Virus record (IMG/VR): IMGVR_UViG_3300027741_000085
Coordinates: 1-54,249 of that record
DNA length: 54,249 nt
Reading direction: 5' to 3' (one strand)
Source: a virus
The notes beneath the pieces are model-generated. The model searched no databases and had not been told where the DNA came from. It saw only the letters and a list, made by a program, of their open reading frames with translations. Shown here piece after piece: positions 1-37,285 of the stretch. How positions within the stretch are numbered: the first letter of the stretch is position 1; the number at the start of each line of letters is the position of its first letter. The position numbers and the translations under genes were made by a program.

Positions 1-229
1 CGTTATGCCTGTCTTTGGCAGCCACAGCCAAGCCGAGCATGTAGTGGTCTTCGAGGCCCTCACGGACTCCGAGTTTGGGGGCCTTTCGTAGTCCGTGACC
101 CACTTCCCACCCAATCCGCCAAGCCGATTCGATGAATGGATTGCCCTTTGGAAATTCGGGGTGCGCATCGGCATAACTAGCGGTTGCAGGCAACCCCTCT
201 ATGCTATCTGTCGGTGGATTCGTCTTCAT
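1..229 (-). CDS. Cassette gene, Rmf-like small protein (partial, leaves window)
   Basis: Open frame from an ATG at 229 to the left edge, at least 76 codons, so the C-terminus is missing. The N-terminal 17 or so residues are encoded inside the attC of the upstream cassette (171-262), and the frame then crosses the GTTATGC box into the cassette proper. A segment reading NPFIESAWRIGWEVGHG recalls the Asn-Pro ... Ala-Trp ... Gly-Trp pattern of ribosome-modulation-factor-like phage proteins. That match is from memory and weak. The box GCATAAC (complement of 2-8) at the window edge matches the cassette's own start, so the next attC begins here. Function unknown. Confidence 0.5.
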   Translation of the reverse strand, partial: MKTNPPTDSIEGLPATASYADAHPEFPKGNPFIESAWRIGWEVGHGLRKAPKLGVREGLEDHYMLGLAVAAKDRHN

Positions 230-262
230 GGCTTCGTGGTTGCCTGACCCTTATCGTTCTAA
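171..262 (-). repeat. attC-like integron site a4
   Basis: On the minus strand it runs from box TTAGAAC to box GTTATGC. Arms AGGGTCAGGCAACC and GGTTGCCTGCAACC pair into a hairpin with one extra base on the 3' arm. The ATG of the downstream cassette gene (229) lies in the loop. Confidence 0.8.
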
Positions 263-571
263 TCATTCATCGGGCATATTGGGTAGCCACATCCAATGCG
301 TGATATGGCAGTCGATTGCTTCGTCGCTATGCACGTCGATCCAGTCTTTTCCGTCCCATGACGCGACGTAGTGCGTGCCTTGGTCGGTGGCGAGCACTGG
401 CTCAGGATCAGGCGGGAGCCACGAATCGGAGTTTACCCATGTCGGCACATTGCGCTTTTCCGCCATCGCTATGATTTGATCATGGACGCGGTCAGGCATC
501 TGACCAGAACCATGCGGTGCAGCGCAACGGGCAGGGTCTTCGGTGGTTTGAATATCGTTCGCTTCGTTCAT
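263..571 (-). CDS. Cassette gene, DUF551-like protein
   Basis: A 102-aa acidic, Trp-rich protein. Its C-terminus (HWMWLPNMP) matches the HWMPLPEPP-type ending of DUF551 proteins, which are small phage and prophage proteins of unknown function. The ATG sits in the loop of attC a3 and overlaps the stop of the preceding gene as ATGA. The first residues are therefore coded by the upstream cassette's attC and the rest by its own cassette. It is followed by attC a4. A second DUF551-like gene occurs in a different array at 9486. Function unknown; the family call rests on the C-terminal motif. Confidence 0.6.
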   Translation of the reverse strand: MNEANDIQTTEDPARCAAPHGSGQMPDRVHDQIIAMAEKRNVPTWVNSDSWLPPDPEPVLATDQGTHYVASWDGKDWIDVHSDEAIDCHITHWMWLPNMPDE

Positions 572-634
572 ATTTTTTGGTGGTTTAATTGTTGGTTGCG
601 GTCAGCCTGCCCGTTGCTGACCTGATCGTTCTGT
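504..634 (-). repeat. attC-like integron site a3
   Basis: Minus strand from box ACAGAAC (628-634) to box GTTCTGG (504-510). Arms CAGCAACGGGCAGG and CCTGCCCGTTGCGCTG pair. The upstream cassette starts GTTCTGT (830-836), the exact complement of ACAGAAC. An ATGA overlap lies in the loop (568-571). Confidence 0.8.
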
Positions 635-879
635 GAATAGATCGGCTCGCTCCACGTCCGCACAGGGAAGTGGATTCGCTCGCCGCCGAGTCCGTTCTTC
701 CGCAGGAGTGAGCAGACACCATCCGCTTGCTCCTTCGTGTCGTGTCGATCTCGGGTGGTGTTTTCGTGCCCCTCGTAGGAGAAGCTAAGCAGGTCGTCAG
801 GCCATTGAGCGCACGAGTTCCATGCGATCACAGAACACGGCACTGGTGGCAACGGAAGGGGATTCTCTGGAGTATCCAT
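568..879 (-). CDS. Cassette gene, small hypothetical phage protein
   Basis: A 103-aa protein starting at the ATG inside attC a2; the open frame continues further upstream but other cassettes favour this start. It is rich in charged residues, with a central segment containing TRDRHDTKEQADGVC and GLGGERIHFPVRTW. I associate this with an uncharacterised small phage family, but cannot assign a function. Its first 15 residues (to VPC) come from the attC, and the crossover box GTTCTGT lies within codons for CSV. The stop overlaps the next gene's start (ATGA). Confidence 0.6.
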   Translation of the reverse strand: MDTPENPLPLPPVPCSVIAWNSCAQWPDDLLSFSYEGHENTTRDRHDTKEQADGVCSLLRKNGLGGERIHFPVRTWSEPIYSQNDQVSNGQADRNQQLNHQKI

Positions 880-959
880 ATCAGTCTTGATTTGAGTGTT
901 GAGCGGCTTCGTCGGAGCGCATCGCCGCCCCTTCCGTCGCCACAGTTTTGACGTTCTCT
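830..959 (-). repeat. attC-like integron site a2
   Basis: Minus strand from box AGAGAAC (953-959) to box GTTCTGT (830-836). The arms GTGGCGACGGAAGGGG and CCCCTTCCGTTGCCAC are complementary except at one G.T position. AGAGAAC is the exact complement of GTTCTCT at the start of the same cassette (1170-1176). Confidence 0.85.
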
Positions 960-1246
960 CAACTGAACATAGCGGCATGTTTGATCGCTACGCATGATGA
1001 GCAAACATAGTATTCAGCCTCTTGTGTGCCGCCCTCATAGGCTCCAACTATTTGCACCCATATCAGTTCACCTTCTTTTGCGTCGGAACACACATCGCAG
1101 TCACGCGGATCTTTTGCCCAGAAGTCGCAGCACTCTAGCCCCATCTGGTCAGCCATCTGGTCAACCGTCAGAGAACACGGCACTGCATCCGACACGCAAA
1201 GCGGCGGTGGCGGTTCCGCGGGCGGAGTATGCGCGATCTCACTCAT
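959..1246 (-). CDS. Cassette gene, small Cys-containing hypothetical protein
   Basis: A 95-aa frame from an ATG in the loop of attC a1. A shorter form from an ATG at 1156 lies wholly inside the cassette. Cysteine pairs (ECCDFW, CDVC, CSSC) suggest metal binding. The ATG overlaps the stop of the DUF1064-like gene (ATGA), which implies coupled translation. The Pro-rich N-terminus comes from attC sequence, which argues that the working part starts near residue 30. The stop lies just before the AGAGAAC box. Function unknown. Confidence 0.55.
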   Translation of the reverse strand: MSEIAHTPPAEPPPPLCVSDAVPCSLTVDQMADQMGLECCDFWAKDPRDCDVCSDAKEGELIWVQIVGAYEGGTQEAEYYVCSSCVAIKHAAMFS

Positions 1247-1279
1247 GATTCGGCGTGCGTATGAGTTTGATCGTTACAT
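1170..1279 (-). repeat. attC-like integron site a1 (first of the left array)
   Basis: Minus strand from box ATGTAAC (1273-1279) to GTTCTCT (1170-1176). Arms are weaker than in the other sites (ACTCATACGCACGC against GCGTGTCGGATGCAGT). It overlaps the 3' end of the nuclease gene and carries an ATGA stop/start overlap at 1243-1246. Confidence 0.65.
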
Positions 1280-1755
1280 AGTTGACTAATTTTCACAGCC
1301 CAGCCTTCCGTTTGCTTCTGAGCAAATCGCCATGTCCACATGGGGAATGCGCTGACGGCTTCTTTGTATGCGCGCAGGGTGTGTCCGTTGTGGATACGGG
1401 GGCCTTTGACTTCACAGAGGCACACAATTTCTGCGCCTCGCAGGACGACTAAATCAGGGGTGTAACGGGTGCCGCTGGGGAGATGTAAGGTGAAGGGTTC
1501 AAAAAGCACGAGGCAACTTTGATGTTCAGCGATAAGAAACCGCTGATATTCTTGCTCTCCTTGGTTCATCTTCCGGGGGCGGGGCATCCGAATCTGGGGC
1601 GCGCTAGTGGCGGGTTGAACCAAGCCGTTCGTGCGAACGAACTCAGCGGCTTTCACGCCTTTGGGAAGCTGGATCGTGCTGCCAGACGGCAAGTTCATGA
1701 ACGCCCGGTATTCCTTCGCGGTCATCTGCATCTGAGCTGGAGAAAGGGTGCTCAT
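1243..1755 (-). CDS. DUF1064-like putative endonuclease
   Basis: 170 aa. The second half has the layout of a PD-(D/E)XK nuclease: a variable region, then RYTPDLVVL (Asp), then CEVKG (Glu-x-Lys), followed by an Arg/Lys-rich helix and a Trp-rich C-terminal strand. DUF1064 proteins are phage nucleases thought to act on recombination or Holliday-junction intermediates, usually beside replication genes. The 3' end overlaps attC a1 and a copy of the AATTAG/TCAAC boundary motif. It is probably the last backbone gene before the left cassette array. Catalysis is inferred, not shown. Confidence 0.65.
   Translation of the reverse strand: MSTLSPAQMQMTAKEYRAFMNLPSGSTIQLPKGVKAAEFVRTNGLVQPATSAPQIRMPRPRKMNQGEQEYQRFLIAEHQSCLVLFEPFTLHLPSGTRYTPDLVVLRGAEIVCLCEVKGPRIHNGHTLRAYKEAVSAFPMWTWRFAQKQTEGWAVKISQLCNDQTHTHAES
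1278..1293 (-). repeat. Boundary motif copy (AATTAGTCAACTAT on minus strand)
   Basis: Lies inside the 3' coding end of the nuclease gene, about 30 bases before the next start codon. This is the same position relative to the next gene as the copies in the early operon. Confidence 0.6.
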
Positions 1756-4635: not shown

Positions 4636-4893
4636 ATGTCCGAATCCGCTCCATCTCCAACTATCCCTATCACTGGCGAAGCCCCAGAAACTACTCCTAA
4701 AGACAGTCTTACCGTGAAGATGCCTGCGTTTCTGCGGGCGGCACTGGATCGTGAAGCGGCCAAGTGGGGCCAAAGCGCGCCGGAGTTTATCCGGTCCTTT
4801 ATCATCTTCGCCATGCGGCAGGAGGAAGGGGTAACGCTGAAACTGCACGCGGCGGCCATGGAAACAACGGGTGAACTGACTCTTAACGCATGA
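4636..4893 (+). CDS. Ribbon-helix-helix-like DNA-binding protein
   Basis: 85 aa. After a Pro/Thr-rich N-terminus of about 23 residues, SLTVKMPAFLRAALDREA forms the beta strand and first helix, and APEFIRSFIIFAMRQ the second helix, of a ribbon-helix-helix fold. Such phage proteins are usually dimeric transcriptional regulators. The stop overlaps the next start (ATGATG). Its target is not known. Confidence 0.55.
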   Translation: MSESAPSPTIPITGEAPETTPKDSLTVKMPAFLRAALDREAAKWGQSAPEFIRSFIIFAMRQEEGVTLKLHAAAMETTGELTLNA

Positions 4894-5066
4894 TGCCTAT
4901 TCTCACCGCTTTAGCCAAGAGCTTTCCGATAATACTCGGATTTGGGATTGGCGCTCTCATAAGTCACTTCATGGGGATTAACTACGACCATAACATGCTG
5001 GTATTTATGATGACGAGCATGGGCGTTTATATCGCTAATTTAGCCAACGAACTTGATGCCTTTTAA
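4890..5066 (+). CDS. Small two-helix membrane protein
   Basis: 58 aa. Two hydrophobic stretches (about residues 3-27 and 36-52, containing IILGFGIGALI and LVFMMTSMGVYIANL) separated by a short polar loop, with an acidic C-terminus. Start overlaps the upstream stop and the 3' end overlaps the next gene's start, so it lies in a coupled trio. Possible superinfection-exclusion or holin-like protein; no family recognised. Confidence 0.5.
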   Translation: MMPILTALAKSFPIILGFGIGALISHFMGINYDHNMLVFMMTSMGVYIANLANELDAF

Positions 5067-5415
5067 ATCGTTTATGCACTATCCTTATCAACACGGTTTT
5101 TATCAAGCTTGGGCGAAGGCATGGGAGCAGGAGCAAACGGCCCATCCGGTTAAAGACCTGAACACGTTGCCTCCGCTGCCAGCCAAGCCCAAGGAAGGCG
5201 TTTACTCGCGTGCTTTTTGCATGGACGAATACGTCCACCGTTACCTAATTTACTGGCGTGGGCAGTGGCGAACCTGTTTGGTTACCATGGAAACTTTTAG
5301 TGATCTCAAGATATGGCCTAGTCCTGAGCTTTCACTGGAGACTTTACTGAAAATCTTTGACCATCTTGAACCCGCGCATCGCTGGGAACTGCCATTAAGA
5401 CTCCTTCCACCTTGA
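5056..5415 (+). CDS. Hypothetical early protein
   Basis: 119 aa, rich in Tyr, Trp, His and Pro (HYPYQHGFYQAWAKAWEQEQ), soluble. Starts inside the end of the upstream membrane-protein gene, so translation is probably coupled. No domain recognised. Confidence 0.5.
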   Translation: MPFKSFMHYPYQHGFYQAWAKAWEQEQTAHPVKDLNTLPPLPAKPKEGVYSRAFCMDEYVHRYLIYWRGQWRTCLVTMETFSDLKIWPSPELSLETLLKIFDHLEPAHRWELPLRLLPP

Positions 5416-5455
5416 ACCTTGAACCTTCATTCTTTCTTACCTCCTCTCCCTTGTT

Positions 5456-5872
5456 ATGAAAAGCATCTCCTTTGCCCTCACTGTTCCGCAGTTTCAAGAT
5501 CGTAGTAAATCGGTGACTCGTCGCCTTGCCTGGGATTCGCTCGTCGAAGCCTGCGCCCGTGGTGCGAAACCTATCCTTCGCGCCTGCGAGAAGTGTCAGG
5601 GCTTGAAGAAGGGAGAGAAAGCCGTGGTGCTGGGTTACATCCGTGTCGTGAGCGCACGGAAAGAACAGCTCAGTAAGATGCTGGACAATCCCGACTATGG
5701 CCGCCGGGAAGTGATCAAGGAAGGATTCCCAGAAATGGCTCCCGAGGAGTTCGTGGATTTCTTCGTGAAATCCCATCCCGACAAAGCGAACCCGACCACG
5801 AAGAAGACTTTTGTGACGCGGATTCAGTTTGAATACCTGAGTGAAGCCGAAGCGGCGGCGTTAGAGAATTAG
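5456..5872 (+). CDS. ASCH/PUA-like phage protein
   Basis: 138 aa. The N-terminal pattern ISFALTVPQFQDRSKSVTRR, then CEKCQGL and a hydrophobic strand VVLGYIRVVSARKEQL, fits the ASCH (PUA-like) beta-barrel domain seen in phage proteins. These are thought to bind RNA or act in nucleotide modification. The last residues EN-stop come from a boundary motif. The preceding leader CTCTCCCTTGTT has no Shine-Dalgarno. Biochemical role unknown. Confidence 0.55.
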   Translation: MKSISFALTVPQFQDRSKSVTRRLAWDSLVEACARGAKPILRACEKCQGLKKGEKAVVLGYIRVVSARKEQLSKMLDNPDYGRREVIKEGFPEMAPEEFVDFFVKSHPDKANPTTKKTFVTRIQFEYLSEAEAAALEN

Positions 5873-6376: not shown

Positions 6377-6477
6377 CCTACGGTTCCATTTGCAGCGGCA
6401 TCGAAGCCGCTACCACCGCTTGGCATTCGCTGGGCTGGAAGCCTGCATTCGTGGATTCACTACCCCTTACGAATTAG
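6373..6477 (+). pseudogene. Truncated DNA cytosine-5 methyltransferase (5' remnant)
   Basis: Only 34 codons remain. MTYGSICSGIEAATTAWHSL matches the start of phage C5-cytosine methyltransferases: the motif I region (G-S-x-C-S-G-I-E-A) and the following WHxLGWKP. Full enzymes are several hundred residues; here motif IV (PCQ) and all later motifs are missing. The frame ends SLPLTN-stop, with the Asn and stop codons belonging to a boundary motif at 6472. The deletion or recombination joint thus lies at or next to the motif. The product cannot be active. Confidence 0.7.
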
Positions 6478-6485
6478 TCAACCAT
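6472..6485 (+). repeat. Boundary motif copy (AATTAGTCAACCAT)
   Basis: Marks the exact truncation point of the methyltransferase remnant; followed by a long pyrimidine-rich leader to the ATG at 6535. Confidence 0.7.
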
Positions 6486-6534
6486 ATCCCGCCCTCCTGA
6501 CTACTGGCTTCTGTCTTCTCACTCTTTCCTCCCC

Positions 6535-7425
6535 ATGTCTGACTGGATCAAATTCAACCGCTCGCTGCTCGCGAATCCCAAGGTGGACGCGATGCTGGCG
6601 ATTCTTTCCCAGCGTCGCAATGTTACGTTACGTGTTACGTCACGCGATACGGTGATTGTAACATTGCTCTCGTTATTCTTCGTCATCAATGATCATGCAG
6701 ACGGGGAACTCGTGCGTAACGCAGATGAGGATTGGGTGGACCGTCACAGCACGGAGGGCTTCGCAAGCGCACTCCAAAAAGTGGGGTGGTTGGAAGTGAC
6801 GGAAGAGGGATTACGCTTCCCGAAATTCCTTAACCATAACTCTCCAGCCCGCTCCCGTAAGCCTGCGAAGAGCAATGCAGAGCGGCAAGCTGAGTATCGC
6901 GCTCGTAAAAAAGGCGTTACTTCACCCCCCGCAGAATCCCCAGCCAGTGACGTAACAAGTAACGATGATGTTATGTTACGCTGTAACGTTACAGTAACAG
7001 AGAGAAGAGAAGAGAAGAGAAGAGATATTAATAAAGAAAGTAATCACGCGGGCGTGAGGGAAGCAGGAAAGCCGGACCCAGAAACGGAACTCGTGGAGAA
7101 GATCGTCACGGCCTACACGAAGCGAAAGGACGCGCCGATGGAGTGTCGCCAAGCAGTGCTAGCTGCTCTGCGCGGCGGTGAAGATGGCGTTACGATTCTG
7201 AGCGCGGTGCAACGTTACGTTACGGAAATCGAAGCGTCTCCGCACGGTTGGGATAACGCTTACATCCCGAACGCTAAGGCGTTCTTCACGGGCGCGCAGT
7301 GGGGCAGCATCGGCGGCCTCATCGCTCGGCTGAAAACGAACGGAGAGAAAGTCATTCGGCATCAGCAGGAGCAGAAGCGCTTACCTGTGACCACTGGACT
7401 CACCTTGGACTGGAACAATTCCTAA
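6535..7425 (+). CDS. Replication initiator / DnaD- or O-like protein
   Basis: 296 aa. Residues 1-110 read as a winged-helix domain (SDWIKFNRSLLANPKV ... FASALQKVGWLEVTEEGLRFPKF) as in phage replication initiators. A basic segment (NAERQAEYRARKKG) and a charged linker follow, then a C-terminal helical domain like DnaD. It lies directly upstream of a DnaC-like loader, the O-P arrangement of lambdoid phages. Its coding sequence contains many GTTACG/CGTAAC repeats and a purine tract, so it probably contains its own origin. The leader has no Shine-Dalgarno. Confidence 0.65.
   Translation: MSDWIKFNRSLLANPKVDAMLAILSQRRNVTLRVTSRDTVIVTLLSLFFVINDHADGELVRNADEDWVDRHSTEGFASALQKVGWLEVTEEGLRFPKFLNHNSPARSRKPAKSNAERQAEYRARKKGVTSPPAESPASDVTSNDDVMLRCNVTVTERREEKRRDINKESNHAGVREAGKPDPETELVEKIVTAYTKRKDAPMECRQAVLAALRGGEDGVTILSAVQRYVTEIEASPHGWDNAYIPNAKAFFTGAQWGSIGGLIARLKTNGEKVIRHQQEQKRLPVTTGLTLDWNNS
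6622..7044. other. Putative replication origin inside the initiator gene
   Basis: Repeated GTTACG or its complement at 6622, 6627, 6634, 6715, 6915, 6951, 6959, 6975, 6983 and 6987. They are followed by a run of GA-rich purines (about 6999-7024) and an AT-rich stretch (7025-7042). Iterons plus a purine/AT-rich region within the initiator gene mirror the lambda origin in gene O. Confidence 0.55.
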
Positions 7426-9179: not shown

Positions 9180-9489
9180 GTGAGCGCGCGCCTGACAGCG
9201 CCGCTCCGAATCGGAAAGAAACTCCATAAGCAAAAAGAAAGCATCAACGTCACATCGGAAGTCGCAATCGGGTAAAGTCTCTGACAAAATTGCCCGCCAC
9301 TTTTTTCAACGCTTCGACAATGGAAGCGACACATGCAAGCGGCTCGCTGCTCGTGGCGGGCGATGGCCGGACAAAGAAACCGACCTCGGTGGAGTCTGTG
9401 AATCCGCCTTCGCATCAATAATTGAGGACGCACTCAATGCGCTGAACGACCAAACTCTGCCGACCGAAGGGGCGGCGAAAAAGCCATGA
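9180..9489 (+). pseudogene. Frameshifted first cassette gene of array b
   Basis: A GTG-started frame (9180-9275, ending SEVAIG-stop) is continued in another frame that lacks a start codon and runs to TGA at 9489 (KVSDKIARHFFQRF ... EGAAKKP). Removing one T near 9273 would join them smoothly, so this looks like a single gene with a one-base frameshift. The fused product would be about 103 aa, helical, with no known domain. The stop overlaps the next start (ATGA) inside attC b1. Before it, AACGACAAGGTGAGCGCGC resembles a decayed attC left arm. Confidence 0.4.
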
Positions 9490-9542
9490 AATCACGAAAG
9501 ACTACATCCGCCCCGAAGGTTGGCAGCAGTGCCTTGTTCGGC
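9441..9542 (+). repeat. attC-like integron site b1
   Basis: From box GCTGAAC (9441-9447) to GTTCGGC (9536-9542). Arms CTGCCGACCGAAGGGGCGG and CCGCCCCGAAGGTTGGCAG pair, with one extra-helical G following in the 3' arm. ATGA overlap at 9486-9489 lies in the loop. Confidence 0.85.
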
Positions 9543-9806
9543 ACTTGGTCGCCGCCAGACACGGCCCCGAGAAACGGCACGCTCATCCTCGGAGACTTTG
9601 GATGGCCATGGCCGCTGCTTGCGGTCTGGGATGAGTATGATGAGCAATGGGTGACGGCCACCCTGCAAGCCTGCCCGATGGAGAATGGGAAGAAGAACTC
9701 ATACCTTGAAACTGACACGGAAAAGGGCAGCGCATTGAAGCGATGGACTCCGCTACCGCTGCTGCCGAACGTCTCGGATCAGGCGACGGCGAGGAGGAAG
9801 CAATGA
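9486..9806 (+). CDS. Cassette gene, DUF551-like protein
   Basis: 106 aa. Contains SPPDTAPRNGTLILGDFGWP, a Trp/Tyr-rich middle and a C-terminal KRWTPLPLLP, the layout of DUF551-type phage proteins (an ending near H/R-W-x-P-L-P). The ATG lies in the loop of attC b1 and the stop lies in the loop of attC b2, where it overlaps the next start as ATGA. Its cassette starts GTTCGGC and ends GCCGAAC, exact complements. It is a distant relative of the cassette gene at 263-571. Function unknown. Confidence 0.6.
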   Translation: MKSRKTTSAPKVGSSALFGTWSPPDTAPRNGTLILGDFGWPWPLLAVWDEYDEQWVTATLQACPMENGKKNSYLETDTEKGSALKRWTPLPLLPNVSDQATARRKQ

Positions 9807-9855
9807 AGACACGACAGACTAAATCGAGCCGTTGCCTGCATCCGATTTGTTCGGT
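9764..9855 (+). repeat. attC-like integron site b2
   Basis: From GCCGAAC (9764-9770) to GTTCGGT (9849-9855). Arms TCGGATCAGGCGACGGC and GCCGTTGCCTGCATCCGA pair with one extra-helical base. The loop holds a purine-rich GGAGGAAG and an ATGA overlap (9803-9806). Confidence 0.9.
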
Positions 9856-10087
9856 CTTGTTGGCGTGTCCATTTTGCGGCGGCAAAGCAAAACGTGGCCG
9901 CAAGGCGATAGGCTTCGACACCATCGCTGATATCGTGCGTTGCGGTGCGGTGCGTTGCCCTGTGCATCCAGAAACAACACCGTGCGACCATCGCGGAATA
10001 CTGCGAGGCAAACGAGGCGCGGCGGAAGTGTGGAACCATAGACCGAACGTCGGCGGTGAGGCGACGGCGAGCGAGGCGCACCGCTGA
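9803..10087 (+). CDS. Lar-like restriction alleviation protein (cassette gene)
   Basis: 94 aa from ATG 9803. LLACPFCGGKA, then paired cysteines, then AAEVWNHRP match the Lar family (LxPCPFCGG ... A-x-x-x-W-N-x-R). Lar proteins lessen type I restriction of phage DNA, classically by enhancing host modification. Unlike backbone genes it has a strong Shine-Dalgarno (GGAGGAAG), and this lies in the attC b2 loop. Its last 13 residues (NVGGEATASEAHR) are coded by attC b3 and are identical to the end of another cassette protein at 35301-35534. The cassette starts GTTCGGT and ends ACCGAAC, exact complements. Confidence 0.75.
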   Translation: MKTRQTKSSRCLHPICSVLLACPFCGGKAKRGRKAIGFDTIADIVRCGAVRCPVHPETTPCDHRGILRGKRGAAEVWNHRPNVGGEATASEAHR

Positions 10088-10134
10088 CACGACAAAATTT
10101 TTACGAGCCGTTGCCTCCACTGCTCTTGTTAGAC
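10042..10134 (+). repeat. attC-like integron site b3
   Basis: From ACCGAAC (10042-10048) to GTTAGAC (10128-10134). Arms GCGGTGAGGCGACGGC and GCCGTTGCCTCCACTGC pair. The two boxes do not complement each other, as expected when they belong to different cassettes. Nearly identical to attC c5. Confidence 0.9.
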
Positions 10135-10312
10135 CCAACGAACCACAAATATGCACTCCTGCCCTGAATGCGGACAAGCCTGTTATTGCAATGGCGACAT
10201 CGACGACATTGACGCAAACGCGATGGATGGACCACCGTTCTGCGAACACCCATGTATTGAGCCAGAGAAAGATGATCGCTGGCCTGATGACCCACCAGAA
10301 GTGAAGTCTAAC
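10046..10312 (+). repeat. 267-bp repeat, copy 1
   Basis: Differs from 35493-35759 at two positions by eye. Contains an attC and the whole zinc-ribbon-like cassette gene. Confidence 0.9.
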
Positions 10313-10321
10313 AGTGATTAG
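10151..10321 (+). CDS. Cassette gene, zinc-ribbon-like small protein (copy 1)
   Basis: 56 aa. Starts MHSCPECGQACYCNGD with further Cys and His (CEHPC), a likely zinc-binding knuckle, then an acidic Pro-rich tail. Starts 17 bases after the GTTAGAC box; the cassette ends GTCTAAC, its exact complement. Compared with the copy at 35598 it has two substitutions and a different C-terminus (SNSD instead of a longer tail), because a different sequence follows the GTCTAAC box. Function unknown; similar small Cys-rich proteins are common in phages. Confidence 0.6.
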   Translation: MHSCPECGQACYCNGDIDDIDANAMDGPPFCEHPCIEPEKDDRWPDDPPEVKSNSD

Positions 10322-10338
10322 CCTACCACCCGTTAGCA
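10306..10338 (+). repeat. Terminal short attC-like site of array b
   Basis: GTCTAAC, 19 bases, GTTAGCA. From 10315 it shares 29 identical bases (TGATTAGCCTACCACCC and onward) with the end of array c at 36071. The hairpin is only 5-7 bp, so it may be an anchor (attI-like or secondary) site instead of a full attC. Confidence 0.55.
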
Positions 10339-10363
10339 TAATGGTTTTCCGTTGTAATATTGC

Positions 10364-13693: not shown

Positions 13694-15784
13694 ATGTGCA
13701 AGACTTCGCCCGTGCATCCCGTCTTCACTCCTAGCACTCCTGAAAGCATCAAGGCCATGCCGCCACGGATGCCGATGCGCACGTCCCTGCTTTTGGATCG
13801 GCATAATGAGGACTTGCTCGTAAATTACTTTATGGAGCGGCATCAAGGTTGTCGTGATGCCTATGACGCGAGCAATCAAGGCCTGCTGAATCAACGCGCA
13901 GCCCCCGGCTTGGTCGGTGGCGTGATGGACTCGTGGATAGGGATTCGCCTCAAAGCAATGGCGCAATGGAAGGGAGATTTCTCTTGGAGAGCCACCATTC
14001 AGGATAGTGTTTACCAACTTTCCAACAAGAGCCTAAACACCGTGCGCCGCGTGATTCGTGCTGCTGCGGCTAAAGTCGTGGCGGACATCGTGGGAAGCGA
14101 TCCATTTTTTGGATTGATTCCACAAGGGCCGGAAGATGACCCGAAGCTTTGCCAAGACGTGGAACGCTGGGGACATGAACAGGCGCGCAAAGCGAATGCC
14201 CGCCACGTTTACAGGTCTGCCATTTTAGGCGCGCTCATTCGTGGGGAGAGTGTGGTGAAACGGCGCTACAACGTCCATGAAAGCAAGTGGGTGGAGCTCG
14301 TCGTTATCGCCCACACCGCCGAGGGCGAACCTATTGGTGATAGCAAGCGCGGCCCCATCTATCAGACAGATGATTTGATGCCTCATGCTTCTTTGAAGGG
14401 AGTGATGGTGTTGGTTCGAGATCCAGAGACGTTTCTTCCGCCAGATGTGAAATGGCTCGGGGTGCGGATGCCGCGCTCTGAAATCAATCAATCCATTGAA
14501 CTGGAGCAAGTTTACTGGTCTGACTTCTACTGCAACACGACGGAAGAGGACATTCATAAAGCGGACTACATCGGCCAGAGCGCGGATGTTAGCTACTACA
14601 CGATAGCGGACATGGTGCGTGGTCCGAATCTGCTAGACCCTGCGGCGGCACAAGAACTTTTGGATGCTGTAAAAAATCAGCAAACTTCCGTGCAGTCTCA
14701 GAAGTCTCTGCCTGATGCGAAGAAAGGCGAGGACGTAACCCGCCGAGGTAATCTGAAACTGCCTGCGGGTTACATTATCGAAAGTTACGGACGAGTGGAT
14801 GCCGATGGCGATGGTTCCGCCGAAGAAATCTTTGCGGTGATTGAGAAAAATACGGGGCGTCCAGTGTTCTACGATTATCTGAACGCCGTGTTTAAGGACA
14901 AGAAACGGCCTTTTGATGTCATTCGCACGGACCCTGTAGAGGGGCGATGGTATGGCACAGGGCTATACGAAGCGAATGCGCCGCTGAATGAGTTTATTGA
15001 GTTACTGTTCAATCGTATCAACCTGCGTTGCTCCAATGGTGGGCGCATCAACTTCAGTAACCCGCAAGCGACTAAAGAAACGGCTGCGGGTGAAAAGATC
15101 AGCTTTGGTAATCCCACGAAGAATTACACGTTGAACGATGGATTTACGAAGGATGATGCTTACTCCTACGTAATCGCCCCGGAGATCGACGAGAAAGCGA
15201 CGGCGCTCATGCAGATGTGCCTGCAAGCCATCCAGCTAGAGACGGGTGAGATAACCGCCGGCGATGGAAACCTGAGCGGCTTACCGTCCACTAATCTGGC
15301 GACGGGCATTCGCTCACTGGAACGGCAAGCGGCGTCTCTCATGAAGGACATGCTCATGACGCTAAGCCAAGGCGTCAGCGATAGCATGGAAGGCTTTTTG
15401 AGCTATTGCATTGCCTACATGAACGAGGAAGAAGCGTTCAACGTGATGCAGGCGGATGCGCCTAAACTGATCCAGCTCAAGCGGCAGGACGTTCAAAAGC
15501 TGAAGTATCTCTTCCGCTTATTGCTTACCCCATCTCGTGGCGACGAATTACTCGAGGCTAGCAAGCAGCGTATCGACATCGCTACGCAGTATCACGAGTT
15601 GCTGATTACTAACCCCAGCGCTGCGGCTTCCATGCGTTCTTTGTTCATTCAAGAACTTACGGCTTTAGAGACGCAGGACATTGATACCATTCTTCCTCCG
15701 GTCGTGCTGCCGCCACAAGGTGGGGCGTTGCCGCCAGAGTCAACGTCACAGCCTCAACCAACCGAACAAGCGCAAGCAGTTTAA
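13694..15784 (+). CDS. Portal protein
   Basis: 696 aa, the size of portals in P22- and N4-like short-tailed phages. The head-proximal core has helices and strands typical of portals, including RVDADGDGSAEEIFAVI and PVEGRWYGTGLYEANAPLNE (the lipid-like crown/wing region), and a Pro/Gln-rich tail. It forms the dodecameric ring through which DNA enters and leaves. Start: ATG 13694 lies within the extended motif found before virion genes, so a later Met (about residue 22 or 25) is possible. Confidence 0.85.
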   Translation: MCKTSPVHPVFTPSTPESIKAMPPRMPMRTSLLLDRHNEDLLVNYFMERHQGCRDAYDASNQGLLNQRAAPGLVGGVMDSWIGIRLKAMAQWKGDFSWRATIQDSVYQLSNKSLNTVRRVIRAAAAKVVADIVGSDPFFGLIPQGPEDDPKLCQDVERWGHEQARKANARHVYRSAILGALIRGESVVKRRYNVHESKWVELVVIAHTAEGEPIGDSKRGPIYQTDDLMPHASLKGVMVLVRDPETFLPPDVKWLGVRMPRSEINQSIELEQVYWSDFYCNTTEEDIHKADYIGQSADVSYYTIADMVRGPNLLDPAAAQELLDAVKNQQTSVQSQKSLPDAKKGEDVTRRGNLKLPAGYIIESYGRVDADGDGSAEEIFAVIEKNTGRPVFYDYLNAVFKDKKRPFDVIRTDPVEGRWYGTGLYEANAPLNEFIELLFNRINLRCSNGGRINFSNPQATKETAAGEKISFGNPTKNYTLNDGFTKDDAYSYVIAPEIDEKATALMQMCLQAIQLETGEITAGDGNLSGLPSTNLATGIRSLERQAASLMKDMLMTLSQGVSDSMEGFLSYCIAYMNEEEAFNVMQADAPKLIQLKRQDVQKLKYLFRLLLTPSRGDELLEASKQRIDIATQYHELLITNPSAAASMRSLFIQELTALETQDIDTILPPVVLPPQGGALPPESTSQPQPTEQAQAV

Positions 15785-15796
15785 CTTTTATTTATC

Positions 15797-16303
15797 ATGA
15801 CGACGCAAGAAGTTACTGACCTTACTGCCGCTTCTAATCGCGTTACAAGCTTATCGTTAAGCTTGGTGAATGCGAAGCGTCTAAAAATACAAGTGATTGA
15901 TGCTTATGGCGCTTTGGCCATCAATTTGGTAAGTTCACAAACGGTTTCTGATCTTGGTTCCAACTACAGTTCTGTCTTCGCTGAAGTCTTTCAAGAGGTT
16001 TCAGCTTACCCTGCAAATGGGGCGATTACTCTGGCGTCAGGAGTCGTCAAGCTCAGCAAAACCAGTGCAGGGGCATACACTTTAGCCGCGCCTACCACCG
16101 CACAAGATGACATGTATTTGATCATTTTTACGAGCACTGCTTTCGCTCATGTCATCACAGCTACAGGCCTGCTTGATGATGGAACCGCAACCCCAAAAAA
16201 TACGGCTACTTTTGCTGCGACGGTCGGTAGTAGTCTAACTCTGCAAGCAAGCAGTGGAAAATGGAAAATGCTTAACAAAAACAATTGCACCATTGCCAGT
16301 TAA
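15797..16303 (+). CDS. Small virion protein with beta domain (paralog 1)
   Basis: 168 aa. From about residue 75: GAITLASGVVKLSKTSAGAY, TLAAPT and a terminal GKWKMLNKNNCTIAS. This repeats in the next gene. The pattern is a common beta-rich domain in head-decoration or head-fibre proteins of phages. The N-terminal half differs between paralogs and may bind the capsid or portal. Confidence 0.6.
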   Translation: MTTQEVTDLTAASNRVTSLSLSLVNAKRLKIQVIDAYGALAINLVSSQTVSDLGSNYSSVFAEVFQEVSAYPANGAITLASGVVKLSKTSAGAYTLAAPTTAQDDMYLIIFTSTAFAHVITATGLLDDGTATPKNTATFAATVGSSLTLQASSGKWKMLNKNNCTIAS

Positions 16304-16348
16304 TTAAATCATCACTCCTCAGTATCCTAACCTCAAACTCACATTGCC

Positions 16349-24343: not shown

Positions 24344-24826
24344 ATGACGACTCCCACTATCACCTACGTCCTTGAGTGTCCTGATGCCCGTGTGAACGAT
24401 CCCGTCGAAGGGAAAAGCGGCAAGGTGTATGGGGTCTATTTGAGGGATGCGGTAACCAGCGTTCCTACGCTGCGGATGACAGCGGCACAGTTTGAGGAAG
24501 CGAGGAAAGATTTGTTTGGTTATCAGCGCAGGCATAACCACATCATCCCACGGGTCGAGATTGAAGGAAGTGAGCCTGAGAAGAAGGCTCCTAAAGAACC
24601 TGATCAGAAAAAGGAAAAGGAAGAACCAAAGCGTTCACACAAGAAAAAAACTTTACCGGAAGTTCCAAAATCACAGGATGGAGAAGCGGCATCTCACCAG
24701 TCTCATAATCTGGAGAACGAGGGTTCAAATCCCTCTCCTGTAACCCCTCCTCCTGCTGCCGCGCCGGCGCCAGCATCTTCTGCACCCTTAAAAACAACGC
24801 CTGACGGGAAGGTGAAGAAATACTGA
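24344..24826 (+). CDS. Hypothetical protein with low-complexity tail (contains a tRNA gene)
   Basis: 160 aa from ATG 24344. Residues 1-75 form a beta-rich domain (TYVLECPDARVNDPVEGKSG), after which the protein is Lys/Glu- then Pro/Ala-rich. The segment from about residue 110 (EAASHQSHNLENEGSNP) is the in-frame translation of a complete tRNA gene in the same orientation. The tail may have arisen by insertion of the tRNA with the frame kept open. Role unknown; the position fits a head-completion or minor virion protein. Confidence 0.5.
   Translation: MTTPTITYVLECPDARVNDPVEGKSGKVYGVYLRDAVTSVPTLRMTAAQFEEARKDLFGYQRRHNHIIPRVEIEGSEPEKKAPKEPDQKKEKEEPKRSHKKKTLPEVPKSQDGEAASHQSHNLENEGSNPSPVTPPPAAAPAPASSAPLKTTPDGKVKKY
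24672..24743 (+). tRNA. tRNA with CAU anticodon (Met or Ile2)
   Basis: Full cloverleaf: acceptor CACAGGA/TCCTGTA (C1.A72 mismatch), D arm GAGA-AGCGGCA-TCTC, anticodon arm CCAGT-CTCATAA-TCTGG with CAT at 24704-24706, variable AGAAC, T arm GAGGG-TTCAAAT-CCCTC, discriminator A, followed by CCC so the CCA is not encoded. A C1.A72 mismatch is an initiator-tRNA feature, but the anticodon stem lacks the three G-C pairs of initiators. It lies inside the CDS 24344-24826 on the same strand. Confidence 0.8.
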
Positions 24827-28535: not shown

Positions 28536-31500
28536 ATGAAAACCCTCGATCATCTCGACTGGCAACAGATCATCAGCATAGAGCCTGACGGGGAAGACGA
28601 ATGCGTGTGTATCGAAGTCACTCACCCTAGCAAGTGCTACATCACGGATGACGGGATCGTGACACACAACACGACGGTGAACACCCCATCTTTGCAAATG
28701 GGGGCTGCACAGGAGAATCCAAATGCTGCATTGCAGGATAAAGCTATTCGTGGTATAGATGAGGCACTCTATGGAGACTCCCGCAAAGAAAATCAGCAAC
28801 GGAGGCGTGGTCACACCGGAAACGATGCCCGATCTTTTAGCCGCGCCGCGCTCCAAGACGAACGCCGAAATAAGGGCGCAGGCGGAGCGCGCGAGGAGCT
28901 GGCGCGCGACACAGGCGCAACGCGAAGAGAAGAAGCCGCTCGTCTCGTAGATTACGCACGGGATAACGGCTTCCTCATTGAGAAGATGCCGGAGCAATGG
29001 AAGCCCTACGCCGAGGGTGATGTGGGCGGACAAGAGCACCATGTGTGGATTCCAGAACAAGGAGCGCGGGTTATCAAGCTTACAACGCTGAGCAAACGCG
29101 GTGCCGACATTTTTGGTATGAACCCTGTGCCCTATCAAGGGAAGTGGGACTTGGACACGAAGGGAGCGACCGCTTACCGCTATCTTCAGCGTCTCGAAGA
29201 CGGAAACCAGACTTTCGGGGATGATCACATTGTGCATGGTGTCTGGAATGATCGTGGAGATGTCCACCTTCTTACGAGTCAGCGGGCCTATGATGGGGAA
29301 CTGCCTAGCAATCTTCCCGAGGGACTCGCAGCAGCCGAAGAAGCGGCGGAGAGCGACCGACGCACGCAAGATGTTGCCGAGGCGTTTGCTAAACAAGGCT
29401 TTGTCGCTCTAGATAACCGCACCTATTACCGTCCTTCCGACAATACAGCCGTCTTTGATGCCCACTTAGCAAACGTCATGTGGGTTACTGGAAAAAGCGG
29501 AGTGCGTCGCCTAGTTCCCTTTGATGTCACGACCATGCATCCCGTGGGCAAGCTCAAGGAGAATTTAGCTCAAGCAGCGCAGGCTGTTGCCGAACCCCAA
29601 CGTCTCTACATGGCCGCCGCACAAGCTGCGGATGAACTCGCCCGTATCAATCGCGAAGCTGGCGCCGCCCGCGTGATCAAGGATGAACTTGAGGAAAAGG
29701 GCCAGCCGGCGAAGCAAATGACCGGAGTGAAGGAGTCGGCAGCCGCCGCTCTGCGTGGCATCTTTGCTGGGAAGTTTGATAAGATGGAAGCCGCCGCCCG
29801 TGGTCTTGGTGACTTGGTGCGCGGGAATGACATTGAACAGCACTTCTCGGAAGCCGCGCTCAATGACTACATGGATAAGGTGCGCCAGTCGGTAAAGGAA
29901 AGCTTCGGCTCGCCTTCCTACTGGCATAACCGACAGAACCGGAAACGTCTCCAGCGCTTCAGTGATACCTTGCTGCCTGTCGCGGCGCGCTTGAATGCCA
30001 CGGGGATTGATCCAACGGGCTTCACGTTCTCCGACTTCGACATGCGCGTGGGCACGATCTTTGAAAGTGACCTCAAGAAAATGAACGCTAAGCCGGGTGA
30101 CATGATCCCGTGGAAGGGCGCGAGTGGCATGATGGAAATGCTCAAGGTAGGGCCGCTCATCATGGACCAAGGCGTGAACGCCCGTAGTTCCAAGAATGGG
30201 CGTTATACCCTGCTCCGCCACATGGCTGCGGATACTCAACAGATCATCTATGACCACTTCAAACAAGAATTCCCTGAAGGCGCGGCGTGGTTAGATCAAT
30301 GGATTGATCCCCTGCTACGGGATGCCACGCAGACGGGGCCGGGTAATGTGCAAGTGCCTGTGTTCAATCGCCACGCGCTGCTCAAGAGTTTTAATGACTG
30401 GTCGCCAGAACTGAAAGCGCTCTTTGGTAGTGAACCCCTGCCAGGCATCACCGGAATGGAAGGCTACACCCCGGACGTGATGGCGCAGAAGGGGCTGATT
30501 AACAGCATCGGTGCTGCCTTGAACGGCAATAGTTACCTGAATCGATTCATGTCCAGCGCTCGCAAATTCAAAGCGGGTGACTTACGCGAAGAGGGCAACG
30601 TCAAGAACCTTTTCGACGGCTTTACGCAGCGGGCCATGGAATCGCATCGTGAGAAGATTCGCCTCAAGACACGGCGCGACATCATTCAGAAAGCCGCCCG
30701 GCCAGCGAACAAGGTTCAACCGGAAGACTTGCGCTCTGGCTTGTTCATTCCCCTCGATGACACGTTCAAGAAGCTTTATGAGGCGCATGTGATCGCCTCT
30801 GGCCTTGATCGTGCGAAGTTCCCCGTGCTCACGCAATCTCTCAATCCTGACCAGAAGAGCGCCTTGCAAAAGCTCTTTGCTGATATGTATCAGCTCTATG
30901 GGAACGGCATGGTGATTCATCGCGATATTCACCGCCAGCTTGTGCTGGGTGCCGCCATGACCCAGACAGAGAATAGCCTCACTAAAGCGCTGTCATGGAT
31001 CATTGGACGACGTAACCGTAACGTTTTAGTAGAGTTGGGCACGTATGCCAATAATTGGAGAGGTAACTTTGTGCTGCAACCCGTGGAACTTATGAACCGG
31101 GTGAACCTTGCGATTGTGAACGGATTGACGGCTCCGTTCAGTAGCAAGGCCAAGGATGAAGGTGAACTAGCCGCTCGCCAAGTAGCTGAGCTCTTCAAGG
31201 GCTTCTTTGCTGATCGCCGTATCTTCGACCTCTGGACACTGAATAACGGTTTAGGGGCGGGGATTGGGAAGATTCGTCCATTTGTGCCGCAAGAAGTCTT
31301 TGGCGACGGTAGCAATCTTAGATATGACGAGGATTTTCGAGACAAAAGCGTGCTCGGTCATTTGAAAAACCTCGACGTAGGCGCGGCGTTCCTGCAAGGC
31401 ATCCGCTACGGGAACATCGATACACATCCAAAGATGAGTAACACGTATCGGCTTCTCCGGGCAGAAGCGGCGCATGTGGCCGCCCGTCAGAAGATTCCCA

Positions 31501-34559: not shown

Positions 34560-34945
34560 TTAGGAACGTTCGCATCAGCGATGGCGGAAGTCCCTGCTCT
34601 GTTGACCAGCAGCAGGCTTGTTCGGCTTGTGTGCTGATTCACGATCTGCATTTGCGACTGAGCGCCTTGGAGGCGGCCCATCACCGTCTTGTGTGGAAGG
34701 TGGCAGAAGCGACCAAATGGGAACCGCAAGGCTGCGATGACCAGCCAGTGGGAATAGCTGAATCGTTCTGCCAAAACTGTCGGACGTGCCACTATCCGCT
34801 GTCCGGCTGCCCTGGTGATGGCGGCCCTACGGGACCAGAACCAAATGGAGCAGATGGGCCTGTCGGAATGCCTGGCCCGCGTGGACCAAATGCAGACGGA
34901 GCGCCTAGAGAAACGGAAGAAGAGCACAGGCAACGCCTGAGCTGA
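34556..34945 (+). CDS. Cys-rich protein with short collagen-like tail
   Basis: 129 aa from ATG 34556. N-terminal Cys-rich half (CSACVLIHDL, FCQNCRTCHYPLSGCPG) and a short Gly-Pro-rich stretch (GPRGPNADGAP) before an acidic end. The stop lies inside attC c4, so the C-terminus abuts the third cassette array. No family recognised. Confidence 0.5.
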   Translation: MIRNVRISDGGSPCSVDQQQACSACVLIHDLHLRLSALEAAHHRLVWKVAEATKWEPQGCDDQPVGIAESFCQNCRTCHYPLSGCPGDGGPTGPEPNGADGPVGMPGPRGPNADGAPRETEEEHRQRLS

Positions 34946-34992
34946 GGCACACAGCCTTGCGGGCTGTGTTGGCCTCCGGCGCTGTGTTCCCC
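34928..34992 (+). repeat. attC-like integron site c4
   Basis: From AGGCAAC (34928-34934) to GTTCCCC (34986-34992). A strong inner hairpin GAGGCACACAGCC / GGCTGTGTTGGCCTC with loop near TTGC. The next cassette ends GGGGAAC, the exact complement of GTTCCCC. Confidence 0.75.
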
Positions 34993-35033
34993 TGCGTTCC
35001 GACTGACCTACAAAAGATTTCTAAAAATATCGC

Positions 35034-35062
35034 TTGCGCATCTACGGCAATGCCGTATTATA
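35034..35062 (+). promoter_or_regulatory. Promoter with palindromic operator inside a cassette
   Basis: TTGCGC (35034-35039), 17-base spacer, ATTATA (35057-35062). The perfect palindrome TACGGCA A TGCCGTA (35043-35057) fills the spacer. The second gene of the cassette encodes an HTH-like protein that could bind it. Confidence 0.6.
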
Positions 35063-35097
35063 TAAGGCAGTCAGAAACCAACAAACTAAGCGAAAAT

Positions 35098-35304
35098 ATG
35101 AACACAGTCACACTCCACGTATTCACCAACGAAGCAGACATCGAAGCCGACTCTGATAAAGACACCGCTTTTACGCGGTGGAACGAAAACTTCAGCGATC
35201 CTTACACGCGCTATTTCACGATAGCCATTGAGGTTCCTGCTGTGGTGTCGCAAGCAAAAATTGTGCTACCAGTTGAGCCTACTCCAAGCGTCACCTTCGC
35301 ATGA
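35098..35304 (+). CDS. First gene of a two-gene cassette
   Basis: 68 aa, acidic (TNEADIEADSDKDTAFTRWN) with a hydrophobic beta-type C-terminus. An upstream in-frame ATG exists but 35098 fits the promoter best. The stop overlaps the ATG of the HTH gene (ATGA). With its own regulated promoter this pair resembles a toxin-antitoxin or other self-regulated module, but neither product has a recognised toxin fold. Confidence 0.5.
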   Translation: MNTVTLHVFTNEADIEADSDKDTAFTRWNENFSDPYTRYFTIAIEVPAVVSQAKIVLPVEPTPSVTFA

Positions 35305-35534
35305 TTTTTGCTCAACAACTCCGAGCCGCCGCTGGCGACCTGACCGCACGGCAGGTCGCCTTTGCGGTGTCTCCGCTCCTGAGCGTCCGCACGGTAGAGG
35401 ACTGGCTCGCGGCCAGACGGACGCCACCGGACTGGACGCACGCATGGATTCTGAAAAACGTCGGAAGTCCAAAGAATCCCCGCAAGCGGGGGAACGTCGG
35501 CGGTGAGGCGACGGCGAGCGAGGCGCACCGCTGA
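35301..35534 (+). CDS. Small HTH-like protein, second gene of the cassette
   Basis: 77 aa. FAQQLRAAAGDLTARQVAFA, VRTVEDWLAARRTPPDWTHA reads as a helix-turn-helix of the Cro/XRE type with a typical recognition helix. It may bind the palindrome in the cassette promoter. The last 13 residues (NVGGEATASEAHR) are coded by attC c5 and are the same as in the Lar-like protein of array b. Confidence 0.6.
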   Translation: MIFAQQLRAAAGDLTARQVAFAVSPLLSVRTVEDWLAARRTPPDWTHAWILKNVGSPKNPRKRGNVGGEATASEAHR

Positions 35535-35581: not shown

Positions 35582-35759
35582 CCAACGAACCACAAATATG
35601 CACTCCTGCCCTGAATGCGGACAAGCCTGTTATTGCAATGGCGACATCGACGACATTGACGCAAACGCGATGGATGGACCACCGTTCTGCGAACACCCAT
35701 GTATTGAGCCAGAGGAAGATGATCGCTGTCCTGATGACCCACCAGAAGTGAAGTCTAAC
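35493..35759 (+). repeat. 267-bp repeat, copy 2
   Basis: Second copy of the segment at 10046-10312 with two substitutions by eye. Confidence 0.9.
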
Positions 35760-35792
35760 GGTCAGGGTCAGGCAACCTCCGAAGCGAAATGA
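35598..35792 (+). CDS. Cassette gene, zinc-ribbon-like small protein (copy 2)
   Basis: 64 aa. Same MHSCPECGQACYCNGD start and CEHPC knuckle as the copy at 10151, with Glu for Lys and Cys for Trp changes. The C-terminus continues through the GTCTAAC box (SNGQGQATSEAK) because a full attC follows here. Stop overlaps the next start (ATGA) inside attC c6. Confidence 0.6.
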   Translation: MHSCPECGQACYCNGDIDDIDANAMDGPPFCEHPCIEPEEDDRCPDDPPEVKSNGQGQATSEAK

Positions 35793-35855
35793 AGACGAAG
35801 CTACCAGACAAGGCGCACCAAAGCGACGGGGGTTGCCTGCAACCTGTGGTTATGC
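35753..35855 (+). repeat. attC-like integron site c6
   Basis: From GTCTAAC (35753-35759) to GTTATGC (35849-35855). Arms CAGGGTCAGGCAACC and GGTTGCCTGCAACCTG pair with one extra base. Closely related to attC a4 at the other end of the window, including the ATGAAGACGAA in the loop. Confidence 0.85.
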
Positions 35856-36067
35856 GACGGCTCTTCCTAGAGAAGGTGGCCGCAAAGGAAGCTGCTGCTG
35901 CTGCTGCCCGCACCGCCGCCATCCGCCGCAAGCAACTCGGCCCCATGCAGACAGAGGAGGGGATGCGCCATGACATCCAAGGCATCTTTGCTGATGGCGT
36001 CCACGCCCGAGGCGTCGGCTCTGCGGCAACCAAAATTCGCATCAAGGAACATGGGCAAGACGCATAA
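35789..36067 (+). CDS. Cassette gene, Ala-rich helical protein
   Basis: 92 aa. First 21 residues are coded by attC c6; an in-frame ATG in the GTTATGC box (35852) gives a shorter form that lies wholly in the cassette. Ala-rich helix (VAAKEAAAAAARTAAIRRKQ) followed by a Gly/His-rich end. The stop TAA is within the GCATAAC box, which is the exact complement of the cassette's start. Function unknown. Confidence 0.5.
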   Translation: MKTKLPDKAHQSDGGCLQPVVMRRLFLEKVAAKEAAAAAARTAAIRRKQLGPMQTEEGMRHDIQGIFADGVHARGVGSAATKIRIKEHGQDA

Positions 36068-36094
36068 CACTGATTAGCCTACCACCCGTTAGCA
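36062..36094 (+). repeat. Terminal short attC-like site of array c
   Basis: GCATAAC, 19 bases, GTTAGCA; from 36071 identical for 29 bases to the end of array b. Lies just upstream of the integrase gene. Confidence 0.55.
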
Positions 36095-36127
36095 TAATGC
36101 TACGCAACGTCATGCACCAATAACGTT

Positions 36128-37285
36128 ATGTTTACGCTGATTCCACGCGGGAAGAAAGGGTTGTTCTCGGCTGTTTGGTGGGAGAAGCAGCCGGATGGGA
36201 CGCTGAAACAGCAGTGGAAGGCTACGGGGACGAGTAATCGGAAGCTGGCTAAGGAGATGGCGGAGCTATGGGTGGAGGCTTCGCAGGAAAAGCGTATTTC
36301 GGAACGATTTAAACAACGCACTTTGGAACTGACTCGACGGCTTTCGGGGCGGTCGGGATCGTTGACGGTTCGGGATTGGTTCAAGAAATGGATTGAGGAA
36401 CGCACGCCCGAGGTGAGGCCTTCAACGCTGGCGTATTTCAAGGGGAAGACACAAGCGTTCATGGATTACCTGGAGTCGGTGAAGATGGCGGATGCGGATC
36501 TCGGAGCCATTGATGCGCGGCATATCCAGGGGTTCCGAGATGCGGACCTGAAGCGAGTGACGGCGGCCACGGTAAATCATTCCCTGAAGTGCTTACGGAT
36601 GGTGTTCAAGGCGGCGTGCGAGCGGGGCTTGATCATGGAAGATCCGACAAAGACGGTGAAGACGTTTAAGAAAAGCACGCAGGAACAAGAGGGCGATGAG
36701 ACGCGCCGCGCTTTCGAGGTGGCAGAACTTCAGGCCGTGCTCAAGGTGTGTAATGAGGAATGGCAAAGCCTCGTGATGTTTGGGGTTTACACGGGTCAGC
36801 GCCTCCATGACATCGCGAAGATGAAATGGAAGCAAGTGGATGTGGCTACGGGAATGATTCATTTTAAATCCAGTAAGACGCGCCGCATTGTGCGGTGTCC
36901 GCTCCCTGCGCCCTTGCATGACTGGCTCCTCACTCAGACGATGCCGGATGATGAGCGCGCGCCCGTGCATCCGCTGGCGTTCAAGGCTGGTTCAAGCACG
37001 TTGTCTGGGCAGTTCGGTGATATTTTAGCGGCGGCTGGACTGCGGAAAAAGATTCCCCGGACAGCCTCAAAAGATCGAGTGCTTACGGGCGACCGACGAA
37101 CCAAGAACGAACTCAGCTTCCATTCGTTGAGACATACCTATGTCACTTGGTTGAAGATGGCTGGCGCATCATCTGCCGTGGCCATGGACGCCGTGGGGCA
37201 TGATTCCGCTGGAATTAATGAGCATTACACGCATGTGGATGATGACACGAAAAAGCGCTTTGCGGACTTGCTGCCAAGATTGTGA
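36128..37285 (+). CDS. int: Tyrosine-type phage integrase
   Basis: 385 aa. An N-terminal arm-binding region, a core-binding SAM-like domain (LTVRDWFKKWIEERTPEVRP ... ATVNHSLKCLRMVFKAACER), then the catalytic domain: Arg in YTGQRLHDIAKM, Lys in the KSSKTRR region, HSLRHTY (H-x-x-R), GHD (His) and HYTHV (Tyr nucleophile). It should act at the attP about 3 kb upstream; the cassette array lies between them. It lacks the extra IntI-specific segment before the HxxR box, so it is unlikely to move the attC cassettes. Confidence 0.85.
   Translation: MFTLIPRGKKGLFSAVWWEKQPDGTLKQQWKATGTSNRKLAKEMAELWVEASQEKRISERFKQRTLELTRRLSGRSGSLTVRDWFKKWIEERTPEVRPSTLAYFKGKTQAFMDYLESVKMADADLGAIDARHIQGFRDADLKRVTAATVNHSLKCLRMVFKAACERGLIMEDPTKTVKTFKKSTQEQEGDETRRAFEVAELQAVLKVCNEEWQSLVMFGVYTGQRLHDIAKMKWKQVDVATGMIHFKSSKTRRIVRCPLPAPLHDWLLTQTMPDDERAPVHPLAFKAGSSTLSGQFGDILAAAGLRKKIPRTASKDRVLTGDRRTKNELSFHSLRHTYVTWLKMAGASSAVAMDAVGHDSAGINEHYTHVDDDTKKRFADLLPRL

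Follow-up and report, generated by a model that had tools for sequence, protein, structure and literature searches.

A 54,249-bp viral contig, analysed here over its full length (the window), carries three arrays of gene cassettes of the type found in integrons, the gene-capture platforms of bacteria. Our joint reading, to which we give a probability of roughly 0.7, is that the window comes from a Verrucomicrobiota phage whose operons end in cassette arrays at phage attI sites, and that an integron integrase (IntI) moves cassettes with inverted genes at G|TT. The earlier note on this DNA had placed integron-type cassettes in a phage genome at positions 1–1279. That array (array A) is real, and the same GTT-bounded cassettes recur within the genome and in related phages, but the range does not take in everything: further arrays of this kind are present at 9441–10343 (array B) and 34928–36128 (array C) (Table 1). 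The existence of three arrays, the inversion of the genes relative to attC and the IntI of related phages were all absent from that account.

Positions 1–1279 are confirmed to hold four genuine attC sites. The hairpins claimed there are present (92, 131, 130 and 110 bp, from left to right), as are the box pairs of their cassettes: GTTCTCT/AGAGAAC, GTTCTGT/ACAGAAC, GTTCTGG/TTAGAAC (with a G.T wobble) and GTTATGC/GCATAAC. Across the window there are ten sites, four in array A and three each in arrays B and C, and these have the R''/L''/L'/R' boxes and the asymmetric extrahelical base of attC. The top five places in a scan of the 54 kb for a hairpin between AAC and GTT are all array sites, and the site at 830–959 scores 29.1, compared with 25.5 for the best hairpin in eight shuffled windows. 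Compensatory stem changes among nine window sites give a covariation score that was reached in 0 of 500 shuffles. A covariance model (R2) constructed from 12 sites of other phage records, without window sequences, has a covariation score of 0.729 (0.175 when shuffled) and compensatory changes in 13 of 14 L-stem pairs. R2 detects nine of the ten window sites (E = 5e-8 to 0.02), including three of the four in array A (E = 5e-6 to 2e-4; attC A2 is missed), and matches no other place in the window. Its one match in a further 336 kb of phage loci is the attC at the second attI platform of a related phage (g17, described below).

The boxes match within cassettes and not within sites, as had been claimed, and this is the pattern that recombination at G|TT leaves. 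In 50 cassettes from 11 arrays, scored at the four variable positions of each box, start and end boxes agree at 3.82 of 4 positions, against 1.76 of 4 for the boxes of one site; identity is perfect in 45 of the 50 cassettes and in 2 of 54 sites.

Table 1 Features of the cassette arrays and the adjoining recombinase in the window. R1 and R2 indicate model matches.
Feature	Position	Strand	Evidence or remark
Cassette a1 gene, array A	2..229	-	ORF, cut by contig edge; box pair GTTATGC/GCATAAC
Far R'' box of cassette a1, GCATAAC	2-8
attC A1	171..262	+ (canonical strand)	R1 71 bits; R2 E 1.4e-5
Cassette a2 gene, DUF551-like	263..571	-	In-cassette start near 496; Pfam DUF551 E 0.005, below cut-off
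attC A2	504..634	+	R1; arms GCAACGGGCAGG/CCTGCCCGTTGC; missed by R2
Cassette a3 gene	568..978	-	ORF spans both flanking attC sites
attC A3	830..959	+	R2 E 4.7e-6; hairpin scan rank 1 in whole 54 kb
Cassette a4 gene	959..1246	-	ORF, box pair
attC A4, terminal site of array A	1170..1279	+	R2 E 2.1e-4
attC B1, terminal site of array B	9441..9542	-	R2 E 4.8e-8
Array B cassette gene	9486..9806	+	ORF; Pfam search without match
attC B2	9764..9855	-	R2 E 4.2e-5
Array B cassette gene, Lar-like restriction alleviation protein	9743..10087	+	Pfam Lar_restr_allev E 1.7e-6
attC B3	10042..10134	-	R2 E 5.9e-5
Cassette c2 gene (CPECGQACYC), array B copy	10151..10321	+	winB_0/winC_1 pair, 265 bp, 99.2%
attI-like motif, array B: GGCTAATCACTG|TTAGAC	10309..10343	-	Crossover 10311/10312; exact second copy in C
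attC C1, terminal site of array C	34928..34992	-	R2 E 4.4e-4
Array C cassette body (GTTCCCC/GGGGAAC)	34992..35495	+	Boxes match 7/7
attC C2	35489..35581	-	R2 E 1.6e-4; identical to B3 up to R' box
Cassette c2 gene, array C copy	35598..35792	+
attC C3	35753..35855	-	R2 E 0.02 (weak); R1 73 bits
Extra cassette gene (MRRLF..), array C only	35789..36067	+	Between c2 and attI-like motif
attI-like motif, array C: GGCTAATCAGTG|TTATGC	36065..36099	-	Crossover 36066/36067
Phage-type tyrosine recombinase beside attI C	36128..37285	+	Pfam Phage_integrase 2.8e-18

Arrays B and C were uncovered by a BLAST comparison of the array A region with its own record (matches at 9444–9478 and 35757–35855). With at least two attC sites each and no IntI-family integrase, all three window arrays (A, 4 sites; B, 3; C, 3) qualify as CALINs. 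The terminal sites of arrays A and C lie at the 3' ends of ORF 1243–1755 (minus strand) and ORF 34463–34945, respectively; the latter ORF encodes a small protein containing a collagen-like GxY stretch. The first cassette body of array C holds the small ORFs 34957–35304 and 35301–35534.

The two internal arrays finish with a common sequence, TGATTAGCCTACCACCCGTTAGCATAATG, at the shared 29-bp attI-like motif. They also share the c2 stretch, which begins and ends at GTT. In array C an extra cassette, with GTT at both junctions, is interposed between c2 and the attI-like motif; it is missing from array B, so that the states preceding and following an insertion at this motif are seen side by side in one genome. 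Array C has gained one cassette by insertion at G|TT beside the attI-like motif. L004, a near-identical phage recovered from a different sample, confirms the array B junction, and the array C junction is known from the window alone.

Cassettes have also changed places between related phages. Relatives found through the terminase (g17, record G017; g12, record G012; G014; G011) carry at least eight attC sites. The backbones of g17 and g12 are 98–99.9% identical, and the two phages have six cassettes in common, five of them 100% identical from end to end, with other cassettes found in just one of the pair and breakpoints at R' boxes. A 742-bp methyltransferase cassette, 100% identical in both, occupies the seventh place counted from attI in g17 but the second in g12; a common cassette at different positions in near-identical phages indicates that cassettes are being moved. 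The comparisons of B with C and of g17 with g12 thus both reveal cassettes that have their boundaries at G|TT and move as whole units.

The orientation of the cassette genes depends on which strand of attC is canonical. In the attC sites of aadA7 and VCR, the extra unpaired base sits in the 5' arm. Read in this way, the window sites yield an AACAAG-type consensus, and a conserved motif, GGCTAATCAsTG|TT, directly precedes the first cassette, which is the place expected for attI. The candidate attI sites were recognised from this short core alone; at arrays B and C the core is like that of phage attI (TAATTCACTG|TT in the comparison with array B). The minus strand assigned to array A by the earlier note is correct for its genes, but the canonical attC strand is plus, so the array A genes are antisense to their attC sites. 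Cassette genes are antisense in all three window arrays, starting near the R'' side and stopping near the attI-side box, and the longest ORF is antisense in 39 of the 50 cassettes. The recognised families in phage cassettes (Lar, DUF551 and N6_N4 methyltransferases) are all antisense. One cassette of g17 (g17_2) has a clear sense gene.

Cassette genes usually, though not by strict definition, lie in sense to attC and are expressed from the integron promoter; the phage cassettes depart from this usual orientation. In a small control of four cleanly delimited chromosomal Verrucomicrobiota cassettes (L102, L105, L083 and L107), with sites located by the same models, the gene is in sense and points away from attI in 4/4. 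A count of ORF strands in the 5 kb upstream of intI proved too crude to separate phages from hosts and was set aside in favour of these cassette-level comparisons.

Related phages encode an integrase. In g17, the 321-aa product of 15355–16320 is, judged by its sequence, an integron integrase: IntI models match it best (NCBIfam TIGR02249, integron integrase, 194 bits, E = 3.5e-57, below the curated cut-off of 265), residues R131, H258, R261, H284 and Y293 are invariant, and its best PDB match is Vibrio IntI4 (2a3v), with the IntI-specific region also aligned. The gene adjoins attI (core TAATTAACTG|TT) and diverges from the attC strand, which is the standard layout, and the g17 array sits between a divergent regulator gene and intI. 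The attI core TWTAATTCACTG|TT is conserved among IntI-bearing phages, and the window motif is similar. A further attI without IntI occurs in each of g17 and G011, like the candidate sites of window arrays B and C; no IntI was found in G011, a 59-kb relative that likewise has three arrays.

The closest relatives of the g17 IntI are L061 (79% identical), L062 (74%; on a contig with an HK97-type terminase, portal and head protein), L063 (73%; on a contig with Mu-type transposition genes) and L065 (74%; on a contig of an Akkermansiaceae metagenome-assembled genome (MAG) with a Mu-type transposase). In all of these, as in g17 and g12, intI lies next to an array, and IntI of this clade occurs in at least three unrelated phage types. 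Its presence on the Akkermansiaceae contig makes Verrucomicrobiota the probable hosts. In an unrooted tree without outgroup, five phage IntI form one clade (100/100) on a long stem, separate from the other sequences included (20 chromosomal Verrucomicrobiota IntI, IntI1, and the IntI of phages of Vibrio and Shewanella); the window integrase and L088, long branches that disturbed a first tree, were left out. In the INPHARED phage set, the best match to the phage IntI is IntI1 (40%). Every phage record used here is a metagenomic contig, and none comes from an isolate.

Some records show further features. In that of L062 (G309), attC sites lie near both contig ends (29309–35904 and 400–1001), which suggests that the genome is circular and carries a single array with about 15 sites. 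A wider scan of viral sequences with the attC pattern returned two more contigs: L112 (IMGVR 3300032092_003515) encodes at 6387–7307 an IntI of another lineage, next to attC sites whose cassette genes are antisense, and no IntI was found in the record of L113. In L101 (KX853513, Virus Rctr41k), an annotated XerD-like protein (4680–5678) groups with integron integrases at 32% identity to the phage IntI; the models detected no attC site in that record.

The window record is linear, with no end repeats found, and encodes a portal, a major head protein, a terminase-like protein, replication genes, a phage integrase and a repressor-like gene. An Rfam scan returned a tRNA alone, and a tRNA-Met gene lies between structural genes (24671–24746). 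The region 39382–52734 encodes a giant 4450-aa 'polyvalent protein' with inorganic pyrophosphatase and RadC-like domains, the C-terminal third of which resembles a separate 1503-aa protein (28536–33047); the latter ORF opens (28536–28670) with what seems to be the C-terminal part of an intein (..CYITDDGIVTHNTT..). No IntI was found in the window, where no intI adjoins an array and the contig ends inside array A. An exact-pattern search of viral contigs for an extension leftward past position 1 gave no match. The integrase encoded beside array C was considered as an integron integrase and rejected on its family scores, as it reaches 31 bits with TIGR02249, against a cut-off of 265, in a match that leaves out the IntI-specific region; no close relatives of it were found among the viral contigs searched.

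These observations fit a mechanism in which each array starts at a phage-borne attI, and IntI of the phage clade would excise and insert cassettes at G|TT. Encoded beside one attI, the enzyme would serve the other attI platforms of the same genome in trans. Because the window is without IntI and is cut inside array A, we infer the recombinase of this phage: its intI probably lies just past the left edge, next to the array A attI, or would be supplied in trans. By analogy with g17, attI and IntI are probably located just beyond position 1. The genes, being inverted, point toward attI, suggesting that they are read from the phage's own promoters and that new cassettes would be added to a phage operon at its far end and not beside an integron promoter. 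The Lar-like and DNA methyltransferase cargo suggests a role in escape from restriction. With somewhat less assurance, we favour the broader view that Verrucomicrobiota phages own an integron system, with a deep phage-specific IntI clade spread across unrelated types, attI platforms used in trans, inverted counter-defence cassettes on operon ends and a cassette pool exchanged among phages.

Other origins of the arrays must be weighed against this reading. The phage might be a passive carrier of ordinary host cassettes, placed by a host chromosomal IntI at attI- or attG-like secondary sites and left as a CALIN of the kind previously described (PMC9892861). IntI over the cut-off is found in 80 of 289 Verrucomicrobiota genomes, same-type attC sites adjoin chromosomal intI genes, and the window itself is without IntI. 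We nevertheless consider such an origin unlikely, because the genes of the examined host cassettes are in sense whereas those of the phages are antisense, because the relatives encode their own IntI in a separate clade, and because both internal arrays end at the same attI-like motif, the core of which is kept by other phages.

The tyrosine recombinase beside array C could instead move the cassettes itself. About 62 bp separate it from the crossover of array C, a placement relative to attI like that of the g17 IntI (about 52 bp from crossover to start codon), but XerC and phage integrases are closer to it than IntI is, its TIGR02249 match skips the IntI-specific region, and array B has the same attI motif with no such recombinase adjoining. 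A phage with a repressor-like gene would in any case be expected to carry an integrase for lysogeny, and we judge a role for this enzyme in cassette movement improbable. That the hairpins are terminators or unrelated repeats with coincidental box matches is scarcely credible: such hairpins at gene ends can serve as weak terminators, but the within-cassette box identity, the stem covariation, the co-occurrence of arrays with IntI and the exact relocation of cassettes all speak against it, and the g17–g12 rearrangement already contradicts it.

The earlier note had called integron cassettes in phages rare or undescribed, which is half right. In 10,705 phage genomes, Qi et al. 2023 recorded integrons or attC clusters in 21 phages, with 17 CALINs, one In0 and 3 complete integrons, and IntI1 recombined five of six tested phage attC sites (PMC9892861), so phage integrons are already known. 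Their cases comprise Vibrio phages p16 and p42, Shewanella phage M16-3 and P1, with CALINs in Tetrasphaera, Polaribacter and Pseudoalteromonas phages (PMC9892861). In the open (non-subscription) literature we found no earlier report of a phage-lineage integron or of an inverted-cassette, multi-platform one, and this type, belonging to a phage lineage and combining inverted cassettes with several attI platforms, appears to be a new form of integron. Published phage integrons look like host pick-ups. A phage-adapted integron, if correct, would be a dedicated device with which phages swap anti-restriction genes, and would help to explain modular gene exchange between unrelated phages. It would also raise the question of how inverted-gene cassettes arise and pass between phage and host pools, and is testable by existing attC x attI assays.

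The system described here resembles the published phage integrons and CALINs in having attC arrays inside phage genomes, but the Vibrio and Shewanella phage IntI are close to host types (75% and 95%) (PMC9892861), whereas the present IntI form a phage-specific clade, occur in unrelated phage types and accompany inverted cassettes. With class 1 integrons (IntI1/attI1) it shares the order intI, attI, cassettes, an intI divergent from the attC strand and the G|TT crossover; it differs in an IntI that is about 40% identical, in the inverted genes and in that conserved segments of the class 1 type were not seen. Spirochaetota (Treponema) integrons also have one gene in a non-standard orientation (PMC9668308), but there the reversed gene is intI, whereas here intI keeps its normal position and it is the cassette genes that are turned round. 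The sedentary chromosomal integrons of Verrucomicrobiota have the same attC fold, consensus (NNNNAACAAG..GTTNNNN), attC orientation to intI and cassette boundaries, and the same covariance models detect both sets of sites. They are set apart by IntI of another clade and, in the cassettes tested, by genes that point away from attI, whereas the phage genes point toward it and the phages have several platforms per genome, most of them without IntI.
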